From a virus, in IMG/VR virus record IMGVR_UViG_3300045952_000234, positions 1 through 28,916 of that record: a stretch of DNA of 28,916 nt. One strand, written 5' to 3'. The notes below the pieces were generated by a model that worked only from the letters and a program-made list of their open reading frames with translations, was not told the origin of the DNA and did no database searches. Numbering within the stretch: position 1 is the first letter of the stretch; every line of letters starts with the position of its first letter. Position numbers and translations under genes: made by a program. This document shows, piece by piece, positions 15,342 to 28,916 of the stretch.

Positions 15342-17846
15342 ATGCCCCTCGGTCAACGGGTCGAGGGACAAGGTCCCCATGACGCTAAAATCGTCATTGT
15401 AGGGGAGGCTCCGGGCAAGGACGAAGAGGAGCAAGGGCAACCATTCGTCGGCGCGTCGGGAAGGCTTCTCAATTCAATGCTGTTGGAGGCGGGCATCCGT
15501 CGTTCGGATTGCTACGTCACCAACGTGGTCAAGGTCCGTCCGCCTTCTAACAACCTGCGAAGGTTGAAGGAGATTGGTGTATCGATCGAGGATGGTATTC
15601 CTCAGCTCTGGCAGGAGATTGGAGAAATCAATCCGAACGTCATCTTAGCACTAGGAAATCTGTCCCTCAAGGTTCTGACTGGTAAGGGGTCAGGTTTTTC
15701 GGGCATTCTTAAATACCGCGGGTCCATCCTTCCCTCCACAAACCTCGATTGTAAAGTAGTTCCTACCATCCACCCGGCAGCCTTCCTCCATTCGGAGGGT
15801 GAGGAGGGCGCTGGTGCGATGAAATATCGGATGAGGCACGTTGTTCGCTTCGACCTCGAACGGTTGAAGGAGCAAAGCCTTTTCAAACGATATTCCCCTC
15901 CAGAGCGAAACCTCGAAATCATCCGTAGCTCAATCGCCCTCCAGCGATTTCTCGATCTCTACGCGGACAAGAAGATTGTAAGCGTTGACATCGAGACAGT
16001 CTACGGTATCCCTGTCTGTATCGCTCTGGCCTTCAACGAGTGGCACGGTGCTTCGATCCCACTGCTCGACATCATGTCGTGGCAGAATCTCCAGGGAATA
16101 CCGAGACACGAGCTTGCCATAATGTGCCAGATGATTGCCCGACTCTTTGCGAGGAGAGACATCCTCGTCATCGGGCAGAACTTCAAGTTCGACCACGACA
16201 AGCTAGACAGCATCTGCGGAATCAAAATCAGGAATGTGTATTGCGACATCATGATGTTGGCTCACGCCATTCATTGTGAGTTCGAGAAGTCGCAGGCTTT
16301 CTTAGCGTCTCTTTATACGGAGGAGCCGTATTATAAGGATGAGGGTCGAGAGTTCGACTGGAAGAAGGATAAGGTAGACCGGCTCCTCCTGTATAACGCT
16401 AAGGACGCTGTCGTTGCATTCGAGATTTACCTACGCTTGGTTGAGGCCGCGCGTGATTTGGTAGTCCCAGGGTTCCCGAATTGGCTCGACGAGTTCTTCT
16501 TCGGTTATCAGATGAAGCTCCATACCTTCTACAAGGACATGGAGGAAGTTGGCCTCCTGACCGATGAGAAGAGGAGGAAGGAACTCATCGCTGAGTATGA
16601 TGAGAAAATCAAGTATGCTCAGTTCGAGCTGAATGAGATAGCGGGATGGGAGTGCAACGCGAACTCTCCCAAGCAGGTCGCAATTCTCCTCTATAGACAG
16701 TTTAAGTTGCCGCAGAGGAAGGGCGTCGATGAAGATACGTTGGTCGCTTTGGAGGCAAATTCAGCTAAACTACCCGAACACAAGCGTGCAATCGAACTTA
16801 TCGGAACAATCCGCCGACTTCGTAAGTCAAAGGGAACTTATTTTGAAGCTAAGCCTGACTACGATGGACGGATGCGAACTTCTATCCGAATCTGTGGAAC
16901 TGAAACCGGAAGAACGTCCAACAGTATCCTTAAACCTCCGGTTCGTCCCACAAAAGTGGGATTGGCCTTTCAAACGATGACGAAGCACGGGGAGATAGGA
17001 GCCGAGCTACGCTCTTATTTTAATGCGGACCCCGGCTACAGTTTTGTCGAGATGGACCTCTCACAAGCGGAGGCCAGGATCGTAGCTCTCCTGGGACGAG
17101 ATGAGAAAACGCTCAAGCTATTCGACGATCGAGTTGACATCCATCGACTTACCGCGAGTTGGATATTTGGGGTTTCAACTGAGAAAGTTACTGGTGAACT
17201 GCGGTTTATCGGTAAGACTTGTCGACATGCTGGAAACTACGATATGGGCAAACGGCGGCTCATGCAAATTGTTAATACTGACGCCAAGAAATTCAAGATT
17301 GGTATCAGTATTTCTGAGTGGAGAGCCGGACAAATCCTCGACAAGTTCCATCAGTTCTGTCCTAGTATCCGCCAAGTGTTCCACGCTGATGTCAGACAAG
17401 CCCTCGACACGAATGACCGTGTCCTTGTCTCTCCTTTCGGACGATACCGAAAGTTCTTTGACCGCTGGGGGGAGGACCTCTTCAGGGAAGCCTACTCCCA
17501 CATTCCCCAATCAACAGTTCCAGACCATCTACGACGAGCTGGACTCCGTGCCCTCGAGCGTTTTAGAGACGATAAAATCACGCCTCGATTCATTGGACAA
17601 AAGACTCCTTTTGCGATCGAAGCGCACGACGCATTCCTCGCCATCGTCCCCAACGAATACGTCGGACGATACGTCGAAATCATGAACGAGGAGATGAATC
17701 GTCCAATCGACTTCTCGAATTGCACGCTCCCACGAGGGTTGCTGGTCATTCCGTCAGAGGCCAAGATTGGCCGGAATTACAAGGAGTGCAAGATTAAGGG
17801 CTGCTACACGTGCGAGGGTATGCACGACTACAAGGTGGCAGCATGA
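15342..17846 (+). CDS. UDG-like domain fused to family A DNA polymerase
   Basis: An 834-residue fusion. Residues 1-190 resemble a family 4 uracil-DNA glycosylase: GEAPG at 21-25 with E-QGQPFVG after it, NVVKVRPP near 61-68, and HPAAF at 144-148; the Fe-S cysteines usual in family 4 are missing. Residues 200-370 are a 3'-5' exonuclease with VDIET (215-219), GQNFKFDHD (278-286) and YNAKD (351-355). Residues 390-815 are the polymerase: motif A MDLSQAEAR (571-579), motif B around 621-640 (RFIGK...NYDMGKRRL), motif C EAHDA (760-764), where the usual Glu after HD is Ala. A Cys cluster (CKIKGC, then C824) ends the chain. It is the replicative polymerase of this phage. Similar UDG-polymerase fusions are, as I recall, known in some phages with unusual bases such as SPO1. 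Confidence 0.88.
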   Translation: MPLGQRVEGQGPHDAKIVIVGEAPGKDEEEQGQPFVGASGRLLNSMLLEAGIRRSDCYVTNVVKVRPPSNNLRRLKEIGVSIEDGIPQLWQEIGEINPNVILALGNLSLKVLTGKGSGFSGILKYRGSILPSTNLDCKVVPTIHPAAFLHSEGEEGAGAMKYRMRHVVRFDLERLKEQSLFKRYSPPERNLEIIRSSIALQRFLDLYADKKIVSVDIETVYGIPVCIALAFNEWHGASIPLLDIMSWQNLQGIPRHELAIMCQMIARLFARRDILVIGQNFKFDHDKLDSICGIKIRNVYCDIMMLAHAIHCEFEKSQAFLASLYTEEPYYKDEGREFDWKKDKVDRLLLYNAKDAVVAFEIYLRLVEAARDLVVPGFPNWLDEFFFGYQMKLHTFYKDMEEVGLLTDEKRRKELIAEYDEKIKYAQFELNEIAGWECNANSPKQVAILLYRQFKLPQRKGVDEDTLVALEANSAKLPEHKRAIELIGTIRRLRKSKGTYFEAKPDYDGRMRTSIRICGTETGRTSNSILKPPVRPTKVGLAFQTMTKHGEIGAELRSYFNADPGYSFVEMDLSQAEARIVALLGRDEKTLKLFDDRVDIHRLTASWIFGVSTEKVTGELRFIGKTCRHAGNYDMGKRRLMQIVNTDAKKFKIGISISEWRAGQILDKFHQFCPSIRQVFHADVRQALDTNDRVLVSPFGRYRKFFDRWGEDLFREAYSHIPQSTVPDHLRRAGLRALERFRDDKITPRFIGQKTPFAIEAHDAFLAIVPNEYVGRYVEIMNEEMNRPIDFSNCTLPRGLLVIPSEAKIGRNYKECKIKGCYTCEGMHDYKVAA

Positions 17847-21925: not shown

Positions 21926-23097
21926 TACCCACCTCCTCGCTGCATAGACATGATTTCGTTGATACGGTCCTGAAGGGCCTCTTGGAAATCAGCCCAATCA
22001 TCAGCAGAAAAGTCGCCTGGACCAACCTGTCGACCAGTCCAGGTTTTTCCAAGGAATTTCGACCATTCAGGATCATCGGCCATCTGCTCAAGGGCCAAAT
22101 CTCGAGCCGATTGCTGAGCACCTGGAGTAACGAAGACGTTGTTCTGGCTACGTTCGGGAGGATTGAGCGCTCGGTAAACGCTCGCTCCTGCAGTAGCCTC
22201 CTGAGCAGCCACCCGACGTGGGTCAAGCTGCTGATCAAGAGCGAGACGACCTCTCGCAGTTGCAGCGTTCGATTCTGCCGCTCCTGCCTGCCGTTGAGAG
22301 ACCTTGAGTTGAGCGGCTTGAATGGCTTTGGCCGGAACGATGAAGCTGTCGTTCTGGTCGTTCTTGTTCTGGTAGAGGATGGAGCCATCTTCCTGAACGA
22401 AATGGTCGTAGCCAGGACGATTCTGGGCCTTGGCATACGCTTCAGCCCTGGTCCTTGCGGCTTCAGCAGTGACTCCACGGGTCGTAATCAGATTGTCTGA
22501 TTCCCGCTTCTTCATGAGATATTCGTCGTATTTCAGACCCATCTCCCGAGCCGCCTTGAGGCCCGCGAGCTGAGTCCTCAGGTCCTCCTGCTCGATGTCA
22601 GCCTGCTCCTTCAAGGTGCCCAGACGATTGGAGTAATCGGCCATCGCAGACCGATACTTGCTCGTATTGACATCTTGGGCAACTCGGATACCTTCGCCGG
22701 GGTCCCTCATGCCAGCAGAGAAGCCTGAGAGACCAGCCGCGATTCGAGTCAACCAATTCGGCTTGTATTCCTCCCGACTGGGGACTTCGTTGAGAGCCTG
22801 ACGATAAGCTGAAAGACCCGGTCCGGCTTGCTGTCGAAGCCTTTCCATCTCCTCGTAGAATCGAGAAGCCTCATCCTGAGGAGGACGAACCGGAACGTCC
22901 TGTTCAATGTCAGGGCCTCCCGTATCGAAGTTGATCTGAGGGCCAACTGGAGCTGGCCCCCCGAACAACCCACGATAGGGTTTTGACGGCATCGAGGGAG
23001 GAGCACCCCCCATCATTGGAGAGCCTCCTCCTCTCATCGGGCTTTGGGCCATGATCCGGCTTTGCCGAATCGATGAAATGGGATTACGCAGCACCAC
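21925..23097 (-). CDS. Probable virion protein, helical with Gly/Pro head
   Basis: The 390-residue product starts at GTG 23097, overlapping the upstream gene by 14 bases, with GGAAGG upstream; ATG at 23052 is an alternative but lacks a ribosome binding site. Residues 1-70 are Met/Gly/Pro-rich, 75-230 strongly helical with Glu/Arg/Ala heptads (long coiled coil around LKEQADIEQEDLRTQLAG), 240-270 contain a small beta insert (FVQEDGSILYQNKND), and the end is acidic helix. It fits an internal virion or tail component. No family recognised. Confidence 0.68.
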   Translation of the reverse strand: MVLRNPISSIRQSRIMAQSPMRGGGSPMMGGAPPSMPSKPYRGLFGGPAPVGPQINFDTGGPDIEQDVPVRPPQDEASRFYEEMERLRQQAGPGLSAYRQALNEVPSREEYKPNWLTRIAAGLSGFSAGMRDPGEGIRVAQDVNTSKYRSAMADYSNRLGTLKEQADIEQEDLRTQLAGLKAAREMGLKYDEYLMKKRESDNLITTRGVTAEAARTRAEAYAKAQNRPGYDHFVQEDGSILYQNKNDQNDSFIVPAKAIQAAQLKVSQRQAGAAESNAATARGRLALDQQLDPRRVAAQEATAGASVYRALNPPERSQNNVFVTPGAQQSARDLALEQMADDPEWSKFLGKTWTGRQVGPGDFSADDWADFQEALQDRINEIMSMQRGGG

Positions 23098-24625
23098 GTG
23101 CCACCGCCTTCCCGAGGAGCATCAGGAGACCCATCACATCGACGAGGGCAATGCTCTTTCCGTCACCCACGCCGAAGATCTCCTTCATGTCCTGAGCCAT
23201 CGGTCCAAGGTGTCGTTCACCGAGTTCCGACTTGTATTCCCACGTGAAGATTGGGAGGCTCTTGAACTTCTCGACGATGTTCAAGTCGGTCACTTCTTCG
23301 ATGTTGGTCTTGAGGGTTCGGTCCGACGTAGCGGCCTTTGCACCGACTCCGATAGCCCCGAGACCGGTCATGCCGCCTGCAAACGCTCCGGCGAGTCCAC
23401 CGATTGTGGAGACCCAGTCGCGCTTCGGATTGTTCTGCATCCTCTGGTCGATACCACCGGAGCGCTGCCCGTAGTGGAGGTCGCGACCCTGGAGGTTCTT
23501 GTCGAGATACATCTCAACTTCCCCTGGGCGCATACCGTAGAGCGACTGCATTCCCTCGAGACCCATCATGCGAGAGTCACGATTGAAGTCAGCCTGCCAC
23601 TTGGCGTCGGCGGCAGATTGAGCAGCACCGGCAGCCCCTCGAGCAGCTGCGGATTCTGCCATTCCTTCGAGGCCCTGAGTCCCGAACATCTTGCCCTTCT
23701 GGATCAGACCCTGCATCCCGATTTCGTTGCCGCCTCCAGCGTTGGCTGCACCGAGCCGGGTTCCTGCGATGGCGTTGACCATGTTGGCCTCGGTCTCGGA
23801 GGCTCCCCGTAGACCAGCCAAACGGTTAGATGATAGCAGGCTCTGGAGAGCTGCTTCAGATTGTGCAATATTCGTTCCACCCCATTGCCTCCCTTGTCTC
23901 ACCTGGTCGGAGATTCCGAGTTCGGCGTTGAGGGCTGCCTCGGCACCTGCCGCGGACTGTTGACGAGCAAGCCGACCAGCAAGAGCAGCTCGTCCTGGAC
24001 CGTAACCACCCTGAACTGCCGCACCACGATTGGCTTCCTCCTGCATCTGACGGTAAAATGCAGGAATTGTCGAGGTCGCTCGACTTCGCATGTTGGCGCG
24101 GTCTTCCATCGAGAGTCCACCTGTTTTGGCGAACTCGTCGAAGACCCCGCCGCCACGCATCCGGGCCTGACCAGCCGCATCGACGCCTCCGGACGTTCCC
24201 ATCTCCTTGAACTTGGCGATGTTCTCGTCCATCGACTTGATGCGGGCAGGGTCCCACCCACCTGACGCGGCTAGGTCGCCGAGGTGTCCTTGGAATTGGT
24301 TGAATCGACCCGTGTCGACTCCTCCCCCTCCCATGAAGTCCCGGTAGGACCCTTCGACGTCCCCAAACCGAGTGTCTCCAGCCCCACCGCCACCACCACC
24401 GCCGCCCCCGCCACCGCCATAAGCAGCAGGATTAAAATCATATTTCCCCTCCGCAAAGTCCTTGAAGCCCTGATACTGGACTCCATACATGTCGGAGGCG
24501 CGACCCGTGGACCCACCAATACCTTTGTTGACCGTGTCCATGTATTGGTTGTGCTCGCCCTGGGAGGCGGCACGGTCCTGAGCCAACATTGCGTTGGTCT
24601 TTTTCTGTTCTTTTCCACCACCCAT
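23084..24625 (-). CDS. Gly/Ala-rich virion protein with S74-like chaperone end
   Basis: The 513-residue protein has a Gly run of 12 near residues 69-80, an Ala/Gly/Gln-rich helical body (190-400), and a last 80 residues (434-513) that match the intramolecular chaperone (peptidase S74) domain: SDRTLKTNI, a hydrophobic strand near FTWEYKSELG, and HLGPMAQDMKEIFG. The Ser-Asp pair at 434-435 is the expected self-cleavage site of S74 proteins. The domain is shorter than usual and lacks the long terminal helix seen in tailspikes. It probably trims itself after helping the body fold. It starts at ATG 24625 after AGGAAGG. Confidence 0.75.
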   Translation of the reverse strand: MGGGKEQKKTNAMLAQDRAASQGEHNQYMDTVNKGIGGSTGRASDMYGVQYQGFKDFAEGKYDFNPAAYGGGGGGGGGGGGAGDTRFGDVEGSYRDFMGGGGVDTGRFNQFQGHLGDLAASGGWDPARIKSMDENIAKFKEMGTSGGVDAAGQARMRGGGVFDEFAKTGGLSMEDRANMRSRATSTIPAFYRQMQEEANRGAAVQGGYGPGRAALAGRLARQQSAAGAEAALNAELGISDQVRQGRQWGGTNIAQSEAALQSLLSSNRLAGLRGASETEANMVNAIAGTRLGAANAGGGNEIGMQGLIQKGKMFGTQGLEGMAESAAARGAAGAAQSAADAKWQADFNRDSRMMGLEGMQSLYGMRPGEVEMYLDKNLQGRDLHYGQRSGGIDQRMQNNPKRDWVSTIGGLAGAFAGGMTGLGAIGVGAKAATSDRTLKTNIEEVTDLNIVEKFKSLPIFTWEYKSELGERHLGPMAQDMKEIFGVGDGKSIALVDVMGLLMLLGKAVARGAA

Positions 24626-24626
24626 G

Positions 24627-25013
24627 TCACACCTTCCTAAGCAGGAGTTCTCCTGGTTCGTCTACGATTTCAAAGGAGAAGTGTTTGGCAACAACGGATG
24701 CGAAGGAAGGATCTCTCGCGAAAAGATACATATCTTCGAGGCCGACTCGTTCAGTGCCTCGAATGCCCTCAACGATGAGGAGCTTGAGAGCTTCGACCTT
24801 GTGCCGTGGTCGAGCATCCTTATCGAGGATTAGCACCGCTTCGGCAAACATCTTGACCTGACCATAGGCCACGATATTACCATCATCGTCCTCGATAACA
24901 GCGTCAATGATGGAGCACTTGCGATTCGGAACCGAGAAGTCGTTAGCATGATGTTTGCGCCAGATTTCGTCGATTCGTTCGATATCGCTCTCTCGAAAAG
25001 GTCGGAGTCTCAT
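24627..25013 (-). CDS. GNAT-like acyltransferase fold protein
   Basis: The ATG at 25013 overlaps the upstream stop (ATGA), giving 128 residues. The pattern is GNAT-like: MRLRPFRESDIERIDEIWRK strand and helix, an acidic beta hairpin (IEDDDGNIVAYGQVKMF), then a helix around the acyl-CoA region (VEALKLLIVEGIRG) and a last strand pair (FSFEIVDEPGELLLRK). The pyrophosphate loop Q/RxxGxG/A is not obvious, so catalytic activity is uncertain. It follows a methyltransferase and a radical SAM gene and may add another modification to the same target. Confidence 0.6.
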   Translation of the reverse strand: MRLRPFRESDIERIDEIWRKHHANDFSVPNRKCSIIDAVIEDDDGNIVAYGQVKMFAEAVLILDKDARPRHKVEALKLLIVEGIRGTERVGLEDMYLFARDPSFASVVAKHFSFEIVDEPGELLLRKV

Positions 25014-26383
25014 GATTTCGGTTTCAGAATTTTGACCTCGGCTGACATGTCGTGTTCCTGCCAAACGTAGTCGAAGTTTGAGGCAAGAAGATTGTCACCA
25101 GCAAAGTCCCATTCACCGTAGGAGTAAACGACCAGATACTTGGTGCAGGCTCTCAGGTGCTTGATGAGTGTCTCGGCCTTCTCCGGTTGGACCTCTCGGA
25201 ACCTGTTCACAGATATCAGGACCAACTGATACATATGAGGGAGGAAATTTCGAGCGCTGAATATGTCCCCTGAGAAAACCTGATCCTTCCCGATTCTCTC
25301 GACAGCCTTCCAGTATCTCCCGTCGTCCATTTCGATTCCGTAAGGCTCCAGGAAGCTGTGTTGAGCCTTAAGTCTTTCGAGGAGGAGACCGTTTCCACAA
25401 CCGAGGTCAAGCATCTTCCCCGGTTCAAAAAGCACCTTTCCGACCGCCCGGAGCACAACCTCGTGAGCCGTATTCTGAGCCGTGAAAGAACTGAAGCCGT
25501 TGTCGGTCCAGACATCCTTGAGATTCTCAATGCTCAAGAGTTGGGGCCGTGCATGTCGAAAAGGGAACTCGATTCCGGTTTCTCCCTCCACCGGATACTG
25601 AGGACCATCGTAGTCCACGATCGCCGGTTTCGCCAGTGCATCGGAGGAGGTGATGATTTTCACGACCGGAGTTGTTATGATTGCTACCCCGTGGAGAGAT
25701 GACCAACGAGCAGGCCAGTTCAACATCTCTATGAGCCAGTAGATTTGCTCTTTGTAACCAAGATGAATTCCGTGGGCTAGGATAGCCTCCCCGATATCCG
25801 ACGTCGGCTCACAGTTGAAGGAGCACGGAAGATGAAAGACAGAACGAACTCCGAGATGACGGAGGAGGATGTTGCACCTGAAAGGACCGGAAACGAGACC
25901 AGAACGGAACCCGGCCATCGGAAAGGTCAAATCCCGCCAGCCTCCAACATCCCACCACTTCTGAAAAAAGGCCGAACAGCAGACAGGATAGCCGAGAAAA
26001 AAGCCGATAGCCTGCTGGTCCTTTTCCTCCCAAAACTTAAGAAATGCGGTGGCATCGTGACCAAAGTAAACTCGATAGGCCCAGGGCTTACTCGGGACAA
26101 ATTCGGTCGTGGCATTCCCATAAACTTCAGGGACGCCCTCCTGACCCAACATGACCATCTCAAGCTCGTTTTCCATGCACCATCTCTGGAACTTCACGAT
26201 TTCGCCCGGCCGAACCGACTGTAGTCCACCGCGTCGCATGTTCGAGATGACAGTTCGTTTTTCGATCTCCAGCCAGAGGTTGTTGATTTCGCGAATCCTC
26301 GGTTCCCAAGTAGTCCGAGCCAGCTCAGAGGCCCAGACTATTCGAGTGAATTCAGGAAGACTGAAATTGAGGCGGTGGTCCAT
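25010..26383 (-). CDS. Cys-rich (DUF483-like?) domain fused to SAM methyltransferase
   Basis: The 457-residue protein has two parts. The first (about 1-260) contains GYPVCCSAFF (CC at 135-136), C170, and HLPCSFNCEPT (C187, C191), a pattern I associate with DUF483-type proteins; these Cys could bind a metal. The second (about 300-457) is a Rossmann methyltransferase with DLGCGNG at 325-331 and an acidic YGIEMDD strand end that should bind SAM. The gene overlaps the end of the radical SAM gene by 32 bases, with GGAG before its ATG. It probably modifies a protein, most likely one encoded beside it; the target is inferred. Confidence 0.75.
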   Translation of the reverse strand: MDHRLNFSLPEFTRIVWASELARTTWEPRIREINNLWLEIEKRTVISNMRRGGLQSVRPGEIVKFQRWCMENELEMVMLGQEGVPEVYGNATTEFVPSKPWAYRVYFGHDATAFLKFWEEKDQQAIGFFLGYPVCCSAFFQKWWDVGGWRDLTFPMAGFRSGLVSGPFRCNILLRHLGVRSVFHLPCSFNCEPTSDIGEAILAHGIHLGYKEQIYWLIEMLNWPARWSSLHGVAIITTPVVKIITSSDALAKPAIVDYDGPQYPVEGETGIEFPFRHARPQLLSIENLKDVWTDNGFSSFTAQNTAHEVVLRAVGKVLFEPGKMLDLGCGNGLLLERLKAQHSFLEPYGIEMDDGRYWKAVERIGKDQVFSGDIFSARNFLPHMYQLVLISVNRFREVQPEKAETLIKHLRACTKYLVVYSYGEWDFAGDNLLASNFDYVWQEHDMSAEVKILKPKS

Positions 26384-27584
26384 TGATTATCACTCCAGGG
26401 ATTCCTCCCTCATATTTTTGGTCCGTATCGAGATGCCAGTCCTCGTGTGGAGTGTCGATGTGCGGAGTGTCAACATGAGGAGTATCCGTATGGTCTCCCA
26501 TCCAATGAGTTACGAGTCCTTCGGTTTTTCGTTGACCGTCGACGATTTGCCGCCCTTCGAGAAGTAAATCTTTCTCGATCCTCTCGAAAAGAGAATACCA
26601 CATTCGACAATCACGTGTTCGGTTGCGCCAGTCTCCGTCGATTGCGGTGCCGGGACACTGTCCCTTGCAATGAGCGAAATACTTACAATCCTTACATCCT
26701 CCGAACTCTTGAGGTGTGTGGTGGAGTAGGATATATCTCTCAAAGCCAGGCGTATCCGCCTTAATCCAGTTGACACCATCCTTATTAGTCCGACCACAAT
26801 TACTACGAGAACCGTCAGGACCAACGCCCTGAACAGCATTCGTAGTAGCTGGATCGCAGTGATTCCAGACGCAAGAAACATGAGGGCTAAGCTCAGTAAG
26901 CAGAGCCCTAATGTCACAATAAGGTTCAACTCTAAGTTTCGACGTCTTCGACCATTCATAGAGGTCCAGAAAGGCAGCTATCGTTTCTTCCTCCGATAGT
27001 GCGTCTTGCTCTCTACCTTTCTCGACCTCCAGATTGTGGAGGTTGATGAACCTTACTCCGATTTCCTGGAGACCTTCCAACCAGTTCATCAGAGCACCGA
27101 TTCTAAACGGACTCGCGTTCTCCTTGTGAATAGTGACGATGATGGAAGGTGGCATCCCCTCACGACAGAGTTTCGTTATTGCATCCAGTGTGCGCTCGGT
27201 GGCAACCAGAGTAGAATCGTAATCGCCACAGCTCCGCAGAGAATTAAGAGGGCCAGGACCATCAACAGATATTCCAACACCGACATTGTATTTCTTAAAA
27301 AGTTCGATATGGTCCGGCGTAATGAGCGATCCGTTGGTTTGGAGGCCATTTTTGTGGAACCTCTCGAAACCGAATTTCCAGACTTCTTCGAGGTGTTCGA
27401 TTGGAGCGAGAAGCGGCTCACCTCCGAAAACAGCGAAGTCCCAGTTCATGTCAGAGAGGACCTTCTTCGCGCGCTCCCAATTCCGAGGCGAGTTGATATT
27501 ACCAGCGTCTCGCATTGGGTCCTGATAACAATACGAGCACTTCAGATTACACGCGATGCCGACGGGAGTATACTCTATAGTCAT
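26352..27584 (-). CDS. Radical SAM/SPASM enzyme with His-x-Asp repeat tail
   Basis: A 410-residue enzyme. CNLKCSYC (C12, C16, C19) binds the radical SAM 4Fe-4S cluster; GGEP (54-57), LQTNGS (81-86) and SVDGP (106-110) are further core motifs. The SPASM domain is complete: C243-x14-G-x4-C263, then C297-x2-C-x5-C306-x3-C310 and C326, as in peptide and protein maturases (anSME, sactipeptide and related enzymes). Residues 365-386 then hold five His-x-Asp units with His at 365, 370, 375, 380 and 384, copying the neighbour's repeat. The gene overlaps the repeat protein's stop by ATGA, so the two are made together. Likely role: radical modification of that protein. Reaction unknown. Confidence 0.9.
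   Translation of the reverse strand: MTIEYTPVGIACNLKCSYCYQDPMRDAGNINSPRNWERAKKVLSDMNWDFAVFGGEPLLAPIEHLEEVWKFGFERFHKNGLQTNGSLITPDHIELFKKYNVGVGISVDGPGPLNSLRSCGDYDSTLVATERTLDAITKLCREGMPPSIIVTIHKENASPFRIGALMNWLEGLQEIGVRFINLHNLEVEKGREQDALSEEETIAAFLDLYEWSKTSKLRVEPYCDIRALLTELSPHVSCVWNHCDPATTNAVQGVGPDGSRSNCGRTNKDGVNWIKADTPGFERYILLHHTPQEFGGCKDCKYFAHCKGQCPGTAIDGDWRNRTRDCRMWYSLFERIEKDLLLEGRQIVDGQRKTEGLVTHWMGDHTDTPHVDTPHIDTPHEDWHLDTDQKYEGGIPGVIINGPPPQFQSS
26427..26492 (-). repeat. Five-residue His-Asp repeat at the end of the radical SAM gene
   Basis: This DNA encodes residues 365-386: DTPH units with His every five residues (HTDTP, HVDTP, HIDTP, HED) and a last HLD. The coding strand repeats GATACTCCTCAT-type units, and the 12-mer ATGAGGAGTATC (plus strand) occurs here and twice within the neighbouring repeat gene (near 27610 and 27968). 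Confidence 0.85.
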
Positions 27585-28441
27585 GGTCCAAGATTCACCG
27601 GGTCGTCCGTATGAGGAGTATCGTTATGAGCTACGTCAGTATGGTCCTGGTGAGGCACGTTTACAGCAGGAGCGTCACCGTGGATGTCTCCGTGTGAACC
27701 GTCCGTATGACCATCCGAGTGACCCGAATCACCGTGCCCACCATCACCGTGAGAATCTCCATGACCTGTGTCACCGTGGCTATCACCGTGGTCGTTATGA
27801 GTTTGATCATTATGGCCGCTATTGCTACCTGGAGACTGGTCGTAGTGAGTGTCTAGGTGGTGTCCATCTGACGCGTCATTAAATGTGAGGTAGCCGTCAA
27901 AATGACTCGCGGTATCCCAGATGTCATAATGGGTATCGTTAAACGGAACGTCTCCGTGGTCATCTCCATGAGGAGTATCACCGTGAGTATCACCATGACT
28001 GTCACCATGAGGTGTGTCGTCGTGGGCATCACCGTGAGCACCATCAGTGTGGGAGTCACTATGAGGAGAATTGGTATGAGGAACATCGACGTGAGAAGAA
28101 GCGCCTCCTCCATCACCGTGAGCAACGTCGCCGTGGGTATATCCTCGAAAGGTTCCAGTTTGGTGCATCCAGAGAAACCAAACATGGTCAACCCAAATGG
28201 AACCAGGAGCAGGGAGACCAAAGATATCTCCAGGGACTCCCATATGAAGCCGATACATCCGAGTTCCAGCCTCGTTAATGTATCGGAACTCCGGCCCGTC
28301 GACGTAGATAGACCCCGGCGCTGCCTGACCAACACCAAGATTGGTCAGAAATTGTCCGGAACATCTCCACTCGCTGCCATACTGGTCAACGTAGTGGAAA
28401 TTGTCGCCGTGAATCCAAATCGAGCCAGGAGCCTTAGCCAT
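27581..28441 (-). CDS. Repeat protein with His-x-Asp tract, probable fibre component and modification substrate
   Basis: The 286-residue protein has three N-terminal repeats starting APGSI at residues 4, 41 and 78, exactly 37 apart, each with an aromatic strand pattern (SIWIHGDNFHYVD, SIYVDGPEFRYIN, SIWVDHVWFLWMH). From residue 102 to about 279 it has about 33 His, of which about 31 are in His-x-Asp, most often HGD, HSD or HTD, with Ser, Thr, Gly and Pro between. There are few hydrophobic residues in the tract, so it should be an extended chain or a metal-bound fibre. It follows a tail-fibre-like gene and overlaps the radical SAM gene. The His/Asp pattern suggests metal binding or radical modification; both are inferred. 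Confidence 0.85.
   Translation of the reverse strand: MAKAPGSIWIHGDNFHYVDQYGSEWRCSGQFLTNLGVGQAAPGSIYVDGPEFRYINEAGTRMYRLHMGVPGDIFGLPAPGSIWVDHVWFLWMHQTGTFRGYTHGDVAHGDGGGASSHVDVPHTNSPHSDSHTDGAHGDAHDDTPHGDSHGDTHGDTPHGDDHGDVPFNDTHYDIWDTASHFDGYLTFNDASDGHHLDTHYDQSPGSNSGHNDQTHNDHGDSHGDTGHGDSHGDGGHGDSGHSDGHTDGSHGDIHGDAPAVNVPHQDHTDVAHNDTPHTDDPVNLGP
27605..28135 (-). repeat. Region encoding the His-x-Asp tract
   Basis: About 530 bp of degenerate 9- to 15-bp units based on CAY-GGN-GAY (His-Gly-Asp), interrupted once around 27.85-27.93 kb by a less repetitive segment (residues about 172-200, FDGYLTFNDASDG). Units vary in length and codons, unlike a fresh tandem duplication, so the protein pattern seems to be kept by selection. 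Confidence 0.85.
28139..28432 (-). repeat. Three 37-residue repeats
   Basis: Residues 4-40, 41-77 and 78-101 (last one cut short) each start APGSI followed by W/Y, I/V, a charged turn, an aromatic strand and G(S/T). The spacing of exactly 37 residues twice supports duplication of a small beta unit. Confidence 0.8.
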
Positions 28442-28916
28442 TACGCTGGGACGAATTTATTGGTGCCAACCGGAATGATGAGACCAGTGGGAATACTGCA
28501 TCCCATGTCTCCACGAACAATCAGACCAGCGATAGTCGCTGCTGCATTCCGAACGTAAAGAGCGTTTTCGGTCTTGATGCTTGCTGCGTTTATGAGGACG
28601 CCTTGAGAGTTTGCAGGAGAGGTTATGACGGCCACCCAGTTTCCGGCCATCCCAACTACGTTGAGAGCGATATCAGTGGTAGACGCAATATGGAAACGCC
28701 CTCCATTGAACGTCATGTTACCGCCCAGGTTGGCGTTACTGATACCGACAGCGTTAAGATTTCCTCCTGAAATGTTGACGGCGTTGGCGTTCTGGTCCGC
28801 CATCGTCCCCAGTGCAAGAGCAGACTTGAGAGCAGGGATAGTCGTGACGCCAGTGCCACCACCATCCACACCAAGGACTTTGTCAACGAATGCGCTCCCG
28901 TTCCACTCCTGGAATT
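28441..28916 (-). CDS. Tail-fibre-like protein, C-terminal part (runs off the window)
   Basis: The frame is open to the window's right edge, so only the last 158 or so residues are seen. The visible start reads QEWNGSAFVDKVLG followed by GGGTGVTT, then MADQNANAVNISGGNLNAVG and beta-helix-like Gly/Asn/Ala repeats, all typical of phage tail fibre or receptor-binding distal parts. Its stop is TAA on the minus strand, and the next gene's ATG starts at its last base. It places the following repeat protein in the fibre or tail-tip region. Confidence 0.8.
   Translation of the reverse strand, partial: FQEWNGSAFVDKVLGVDGGGTGVTTIPALKSALALGTMADQNANAVNISGGNLNAVGISNANLGGNMTFNGGRFHIASTTDIALNVVGMAGNWVAVITSPANSQGVLINAASIKTENALYVRNAAATIAGLIVRGDMGCSIPTGLIIPVGTNKFVPA

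Follow-up and report, generated by a model that had tools for sequence, protein, structure and literature searches.

The radical SAM enzyme encoded in this viral DNA carries on its own C-terminus a run of the His-x-Asp motifs that fill the neighboring repeat protein, and comparison among homologues supports this tail as a genuine extension that is under selection, resembles the substrate and accompanies the repeat protein. The enzyme appears to be part of an undescribed system of phages and bacteria, whose components are a SPASM radical SAM enzyme, a partner resembling DUF483, in many cases joined by a methyltransferase, and proteins rich in His-x-Asp. The chance that the enzyme is a cyclophane-forming maturase of aromatic-x-Asp/Asn proteins, with the tail acting as a tethered pseudo-substrate, is judged to be about even.

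The enzyme and its neighbors

The window, the whole stretch of DNA that was analyzed, comprises the 28,916 bases of a virus record, and the following features of it are used below.

23084..24625, minus strand: Gly-rich tail protein with a C-terminal S74 endosialidase-type chaperone domain (PF13884, 5e-13; phrog tail-fiber matches)
25010..26383, minus strand: partner protein, 457 aa, with an N-terminal DUF483-like domain and a C-terminal class I methyltransferase
26352..27584, minus strand: radical SAM/SPASM enzyme, 410 aa (open reading frame, Pfam Radical_SAM, invariant cysteines, AF2 model)
26355..26405, minus strand: segment of the enzyme C-terminal of the tail, GIPGVIINGPPPQFQSS (from alignments; recurs as GIPxxxLxExPxW in close relatives)
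26427..26492, minus strand: substrate-like C-terminal tail of the enzyme, residues 365-386, five His-x-Asp units, predicted disordered
27581..28441, minus strand: putative tail-fiber protein, 286 aa, likely the main substrate (open reading frame; adjacency in most relatives)
28441..28914, minus strand: upstream gene with weak similarity to a tail-fiber family (phrog_2282, E=0.081), running off the end of the window

The enzyme belongs to the radical SAM superfamily, as it scores 60.1 bits against Radical_SAM (PF04055, cut-off 29.5) in Pfam and has a CxxxCxxC motif at residues 12/16/19, of which C12, C16 and C19 are invariant. The seven-cysteine SPASM signature, sought as Cx9-15Gx4C-gap-Cx2Cx5Cx3C-gap-C, is complete (C243-x14-G258-x4-C263, C297xxC300x5C306x3C310 and C326), and the radical SAM and SPASM cysteines are invariant in 86 homologues. 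Among NCBIfam families, the best-scoring ones are for the most part those of cyclophane maturases (DynA, AmcB, YhhB, GrrM/OscB, XyeB and FxsB), all of them under the cut-off (46 bits versus 310 for GrrM/OscB, 32 versus 450 for XyeB, 32 versus 370 for FxsB and 50 versus 445 for YhhB). The AF2 model of the enzyme has a mean pLDDT of 89, and the full-length fold nearest to it is that of the anaerobic sulfatase maturase, which forms formylglycine, followed by the RiPP maturase ChlB.

The putative fiber gene lies upstream of the enzyme gene, its stop overlapping the enzyme start codon (ATGA), and encodes three short N-terminal aromatic repeats (PGSIWIHGDNFHYVDQYGSEWR-like) followed by 32 His-x-Asp motifs. 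Tail-type genes identified nearby with Pfam and PHROGs place the protein in a tail/baseplate context, which the S74-domain tail protein gene supports; the corresponding His-x-Asp protein adjoins collar fiber and baseplate genes in the Thermus phage Cumys and comes after baseplate wedge genes in phiLo. The partner gene lies downstream of the enzyme gene with an overlap of 32 bases, into which the post-tail segment of the enzyme partly extends. Conserved GYPxCC and HxPCxxxC motifs mark the DUF483-like domain of the partner. Homologues of the partner score 13-20 bits against DUF483 (PF04467), below the gathering cut-off of 25, and the partner of the window is not among the matches listed; the partner of Cumys is annotated as a DUF483-domain protein. 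The methyltransferase part resembles peptide methyltransferases such as the plantazolicin methyltransferase, and a PDB sequence search with the partner returned matches to this part only. Downstream of the partner gene, a 145-aa open reading frame (24627-25064, minus strand) is possibly acetyltransferase-like by eye and has no Pfam, NCBIfam or PHROGs match. Elsewhere in the window, an open reading frame on the plus strand (15342-17846) appears by eye to fuse an N-terminal family-4 uracil-DNA glycosylase to a family A DNA polymerase.

A His-x-Asp tail that is conserved but not essential

Enzyme residues 365-386 (26492-26427) read HTDTPHVDTPHIDTPHEDWHLD, with the units HTDTP-HVDTP-HIDTP-HEDW-HLDT. 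The five His-x-Asp motifs reported by the original prediction are thus in place; their spacing, described there as strictly five residues, is 5, 5, 5 and then 4, and the DTPH codons said to be shared with the fiber are shared by one of three tail strings (GATACTCCTCAT) and not by GACACTCCGCAC or GACACTCCACAC. The fiber itself has three copies of such a codon string, one deviating from the other two. When the residues of the enzyme were shuffled 100,000 times, the maximum was four His-x-Asp motifs per 22-aa window, reached once; because the observed five were never attained, the tail is beyond chance. In the AF2 model, residues 366-397, comprising the tail, are unstructured with pLDDT < 50, so that structure prediction gives no placement of the tail against the active site.

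Searches recovered relatives of the enzyme from 78 viral and 80 bacterial loci and from the Thermus phages Cumys, phiMa and phiLo. A His-x-Asp tail was present in all ten of the first-found homologues and recurs in 57 of the 135 distinct ones; apart from an Acidimicrobiia/Chloroflexota group, almost all of these 57 are viral. These tails have 2-9 units, mainly His-Gly-Asp, and the residue at H+2 is Asp in 270 cases, Asn in 5 and Glu in 3, so that the tails obey the same rule as the substrates (below). On the tree of the 135 enzymes, tail presence or absence requires 6 state changes, compared to 43.5 with shuffled labels. In the homologue comparison proposed with the original prediction, the tail is kept by 20 of 20 members of the clade that contains the enzyme of the window, and tail and repeat protein co-occur. 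Among tailed loci, a His-x-Asp protein is encoded in the flanking DNA of 47 of 52 viral and 6 of 7 bacterial cases; for viral loci without a tail, the figure is 8 of 11.

In pairwise comparisons, the His and Asp codons of the tail show amino-acid changes in 16 of 436 cases (4%) and silent changes in 161 (37%), and this combination of few amino-acid and many silent changes indicates purifying selection on the tail. Amino-acid changes affect 28% of x positions and 49% of other tail residues, a contrast with the His/Asp positions that is somewhat inflated by the aligner favoring motif-on-motif matches. Some tails also have conserved non-motif residues, which suggest an additional role of the tail.

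The tail is not universal. One viral clade (L037-L051, approximately 45% identity) lacks it and keeps the His-x-Asp fiber, and most bacterial homologues are tail-less, many of them keeping His-x-Asp substrates. The original prediction had held that close homologues without the tail, but with the repeat protein and the gene order, would count against it; the viral clade matches this description in the missing tail and retained fiber and departs from it in a changed gene order. Since this clade and many bacterial homologues do without it, the tail is not essential, and judged from these alignments it is a conserved, selected and dispensable accessory. As the tail is selected, substrate-like and co-occurs with the repeat protein, self-modification of the enzyme or occupation of its active site by the tail, both of which had been raised originally, is plausible.

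Tail and fiber compared

The original prediction also allowed that the tail could be a scar of recombination, a piece of the neighboring repeat copied onto the end of the enzyme and functionless. The two genes are adjacent, the motif is common to both and one DTPH codon string is identical, but the recurrence of the tail in 57 homologues and the purifying selection on its His and Asp codons argue against such an origin. Further, 76% of foreign fibers match the tail DNA of the window at least as well as its own fiber does. The mean of this value over 50 loci is 34%, and at some loci the tail DNA matches the own fiber best, an outcome that a common base composition might account for. The two sequences also differ in composition: Gly occupies x in 63% of tail motifs versus 18% of own-fiber motifs (Wilcoxon p = 7e-9), and even where the own fiber has up to 65% Asn, the tails stay with Asp and Asn is absent. 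A scar is rejected on the grounds of purifying selection, the lack of excess similarity to the own fiber and the different x residue, and we regard it as very improbable indeed; that the tail is a copy of its own fiber is rejected on the x residue and Asn use. The fibers of L006, L016, L020, L047 and L056 have 40-65% His-x-Asn motifs, while the tail of the enzyme in each locus remains His-x-Asp.

Comparable evidence bears on the suggestion that the tail lets the enzyme join the fiber as a virion component via the common repeat. A single motif occurs in both neighbors and their genes overlap by ATGA. However, the tail and its own fiber differ in composition, tail-less viral enzymes keep His-x-Asp fibers, and tailed enzymes also occur without a phage fiber in cellular loci, such as an actinobacterial one with a Tat-type exported substrate (L155, whose neighbors are by eye RlmN-, mycothiol synthase-, endonuclease III- and HisD-like). 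Joining the fiber is unlikely as a general role, and we hold it to be decidedly improbable as an explanation of the tail.

The probable substrate motif

In 126 substrate-like proteins, the residue at H+2 is Asp 2937 times, Asn 257 times and Glu twice, with Ser in 9 of about 3,300 cases. When the residue at D-2 is not His, it is Tyr 132 times, Phe 53 times and Trp 47 times, compared to 16, 9 and 5 expected (together 232 of 512 versus about 30 expected). Outside the His-x-Asp units, free Asp/Asn occurs at +2 of Trp in 38%, of Tyr in 36% and of Phe in 26%, compared to 5-8% at +1/+3 and at most 10% for other residues. The codons of Phe and Trp are not one mutation away from those of His, and the substitution by Tyr, Phe and Trp thus points to selection. 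As read from these counts, the motif is aromatic-x-[Asp/Asn], mostly His-x-Asp.

An aromatic-x-X3 motif with Asn, Asp or a similar residue at position 3 is what defines substrates of the triceptide enzymes, and the His-x-Asp proteins have it. Triceptide enzymes form a cross-link from residue i to the C-beta of residue i+2, with OscB acting on Trp-Asn/Asp, YxdB on Tyr-Asp, HaaB on His-Ala and YhhB on His-Arg (PMC11002830). Going by sequence, then, aromatic-x-[Asp/Asn] matches the substrate rule of the enzymes that make three-residue cyclophanes (triceptides), and by this rule the system would work like a triceptide maturase; as the enzyme scores below the family cut-offs, it is a candidate rather than an established member.

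The same counts bear on a metal-binding role, in which the His/Asp strip would bind iron, or some other metal, for the assembly of Fe-S clusters, or the His-x-Asp proteins would be metal stores. Both His and Asp are metal ligands and the enzyme, by its SPASM cysteines, binds several Fe-S clusters. Against this, Glu hardly ever takes the place of Asp (substrates, 2 of about 3,200; tails, 3 of about 278 H-x-D/N/E), x is always a single residue, and Phe and Trp replace His though their side chains are not metal ligands. The absence of Glu and presence of Phe/Trp disfavor a metal-only role of the tail, which we consider improbable.

Distribution across phages and bacteria

The DUF483-like partner is encoded in 147 of 157 loci. 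In ~20 bacterial loci it is fused to the C-terminus of the enzyme, sometimes with the methyltransferase as a third domain; a model of one such natural fusion (L126) has a pTM of 0.61 and two discernible domains, and the fold matches listed for it are all radical SAM enzymes. A tail and a partner fusion never occur on the same enzyme, though this pattern comes from only 3 independent tree pairs and has no statistical weight. Bacterial His-x-Asp proteins are varied, among them short peptides, proteins of the Tat-type exported kind and large proteins with His-x-Asp C-termini. Among the latter kind, proteins of ~900-1400 aa near the enzyme end in short His-x-Asp tails (L107, L111, L112, L115, L117, L127, L128, L130 and L139), as if such a tail were a portable modification tag. 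Bradyrhizobium-type homologues have the enzyme and DUF483-like partner and no His-x-Asp protein within about 8 kb (L131, L135, L137-L138, L140, L142-L143, L146 and L151-L152).

The association was also recovered from the direction of the substrate. A DNA-pattern scan of viral DNA for His-x-Asp runs, made without reference to the enzyme, gave 10 viral loci with a His-x-Asp protein of at least 19 motifs; the enzyme is present in all ten, 7 of them on previously unseen contigs. Weaker matches of the scan were mostly low-complexity or out-of-frame. In Cumys, clusters of the motif are confined to the fiber and the enzyme within the first 50,000 of the 50,223 bases of the genome.

Two further repeat proteins deserve mention. 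In phiLo, three consecutive proteins directly after the baseplate genes (L003 14807-16231, 16253-18601 and 18636-19047; 474 aa, 782 aa and a cut third) have 72, 101 and 17+ His-x-Asp motifs, and are probably an unusually large group of modified tail proteins. A repeat protein in L205 (1606-2790) mixes His-x-Glu with His-x-Asp (PHSEVAHSDIEHSD...), the only clear His-x-Glu case seen; no enzyme is visible in this short stretch.

Proposed mechanism

In the preferred reading, the enzyme would be a SPASM radical SAM peptide maturase whose substrate in the phage of the window is the adjacent tail-fiber protein. The most likely reaction would be the formation of a C-C bond linking the aromatic side chain with the C-beta of the Asp or Asn two residues on, yielding a three-residue cyclophane with a loss of 2 Da per motif. 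The DUF483-like partner would act with the enzyme, as would the methyltransferase in many loci. The disordered tail would bind the recognition site of the system for His-x-Asp, whether in the enzyme channel or on the partner, and would probably be modified as well; in this way it may hold enzyme and partner close to a substrate that is ready for use, occupy the channel pending the arrival of the fiber, or prime the reaction. The comparisons directly show the tail with its conservation and selection, its divergence from the fiber, the motif rule and the association of the genes. We infer the cross-link, the modification of the tail and its docking or regulatory role from the sequence comparisons, and because the tail follows the substrate rule, is disordered and is selected at the predicted reactive residues, a tethered pseudo-substrate is the simplest account. 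More tentatively, and with some doubt, the phage enzyme may make fiber chains of dozens of three-residue cyclophanes, joining His to Asp and also Tyr, Phe or Trp to Asp or Asn, and may cross-link its own tail as well, with the cellular versions acting on exported proteins; if true, the enzyme would be a radical SAM enzyme that is its own substrate, and the virion fiber would be covalently stiffened.

As the best fold match is an anaerobic sulfatase maturase, a chemistry at His or Asp other than a cross-link is possible. Such a chemistry (epimerization, beta-hydroxylation, formylglycine-like oxidation or preparation for methylation) could act on the His-x-Asp proteins while the tail serves as a passive, never-modified peptide on which the DUF483-like partner docks. 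In favor of this reading, almost every locus has the partner, its methyltransferase domain is like those that act on peptides, and the bacterial fusions at the C-terminus of the enzyme carry no tail. However, the exclusion of tail and fusion derives from few independent events, many unfused bacterial enzymes are tail-less, and the aromatic-x-Asp/Asn rule with its Tyr/Phe/Trp substitution is the cyclophane rule. Different chemistry combined with a passive tail is considered unlikely, and the cyclophane-forming maturase with a tethered pseudo-substrate remains the preferred reading.

Relation to known systems

The triceptide maturases (OscB/GrrM, XncB/XyeB, FxsB/MscB, YxdB, HaaB and YhhB) are likewise SPASM radical SAM enzymes and likewise use aromatic-x-X3 motifs with Asn/Asp third, some accepting His or Tyr (PMC11002830). 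They differ from the system described here in several respects: the enzyme of the window scores below every curated NCBIfam cut-off, the presumed substrates, which are structural or exported, are large and carry up to ~100 motifs whereas triceptide precursors are short leader-core peptides, and the DUF483-like partner and substrate-like enzyme tail are features unlike those of triceptide systems. The Hxs system likewise places a His-x-X repeat protein (the His-Xaa-Ser repeat protein HxsA) beside SPASM-type radical SAM enzymes (HxsB/HxsC). Here, the third residue is Asp/Asn and almost never Ser, so that the proteins are not His-Xaa-Ser proteins, and a single radical SAM enzyme is accompanied by the DUF483-like partner.

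In the borosins (OphMA and relatives), the modifying enzyme has its own C-terminal substrate segment, and split forms with separate precursors exist (PMC7878506, PMC8429565). The tail corresponds to such a C-terminal segment fused to the enzyme, but the catalytic domain is radical SAM and not an alpha-N-methyltransferase, and a separate main substrate coexists with the tail. By analogy, the borosins offer a precedent for a maturase fused to its substrate. Repeated action of a radical SAM enzyme on a tandem-motif substrate is likewise known from the poly-cyclopropylglycine RiPP TvgB/TvgA, which, unlike the present system, involves a TVGG motif, Val chemistry and a short peptide, with no tail reported in the excerpted text of that study (PMC9062424).

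The radical SAM module of the Thermus phages Cumys and phiMa comprises the same three genes, including a homologous enzyme that is 47% identical; in its excerpted text, the paper describing these phages notes the three-gene module, proposes DNA modification and does not describe the His-x-Asp repeats or the tail (PMC11437467). The data presented here point to modification of protein rather than DNA by the module. Among the open-license PubMed Central papers searched, that paper alone mentions DUF483 alongside radical SAM enzymes, and no account of phage fibers being modified by such enzymes was found.

Significance

Should this reading be right, phages and several bacterial phyla would share a system that modifies large structural and exported proteins post-translationally, and the reading would offer an alternative to the published guess of DNA modification by the gene module. 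Triceptide chemistry would reach beyond short peptides to phage fibers with up to ~100 motifs, and an uncharacterized enzyme family would gain, along with its DUF483-like partner, a clear substrate rule. The idea of a maturase that uses a tethered copy of its substrate to organize or gate its reaction becomes testable through the conserved tail.
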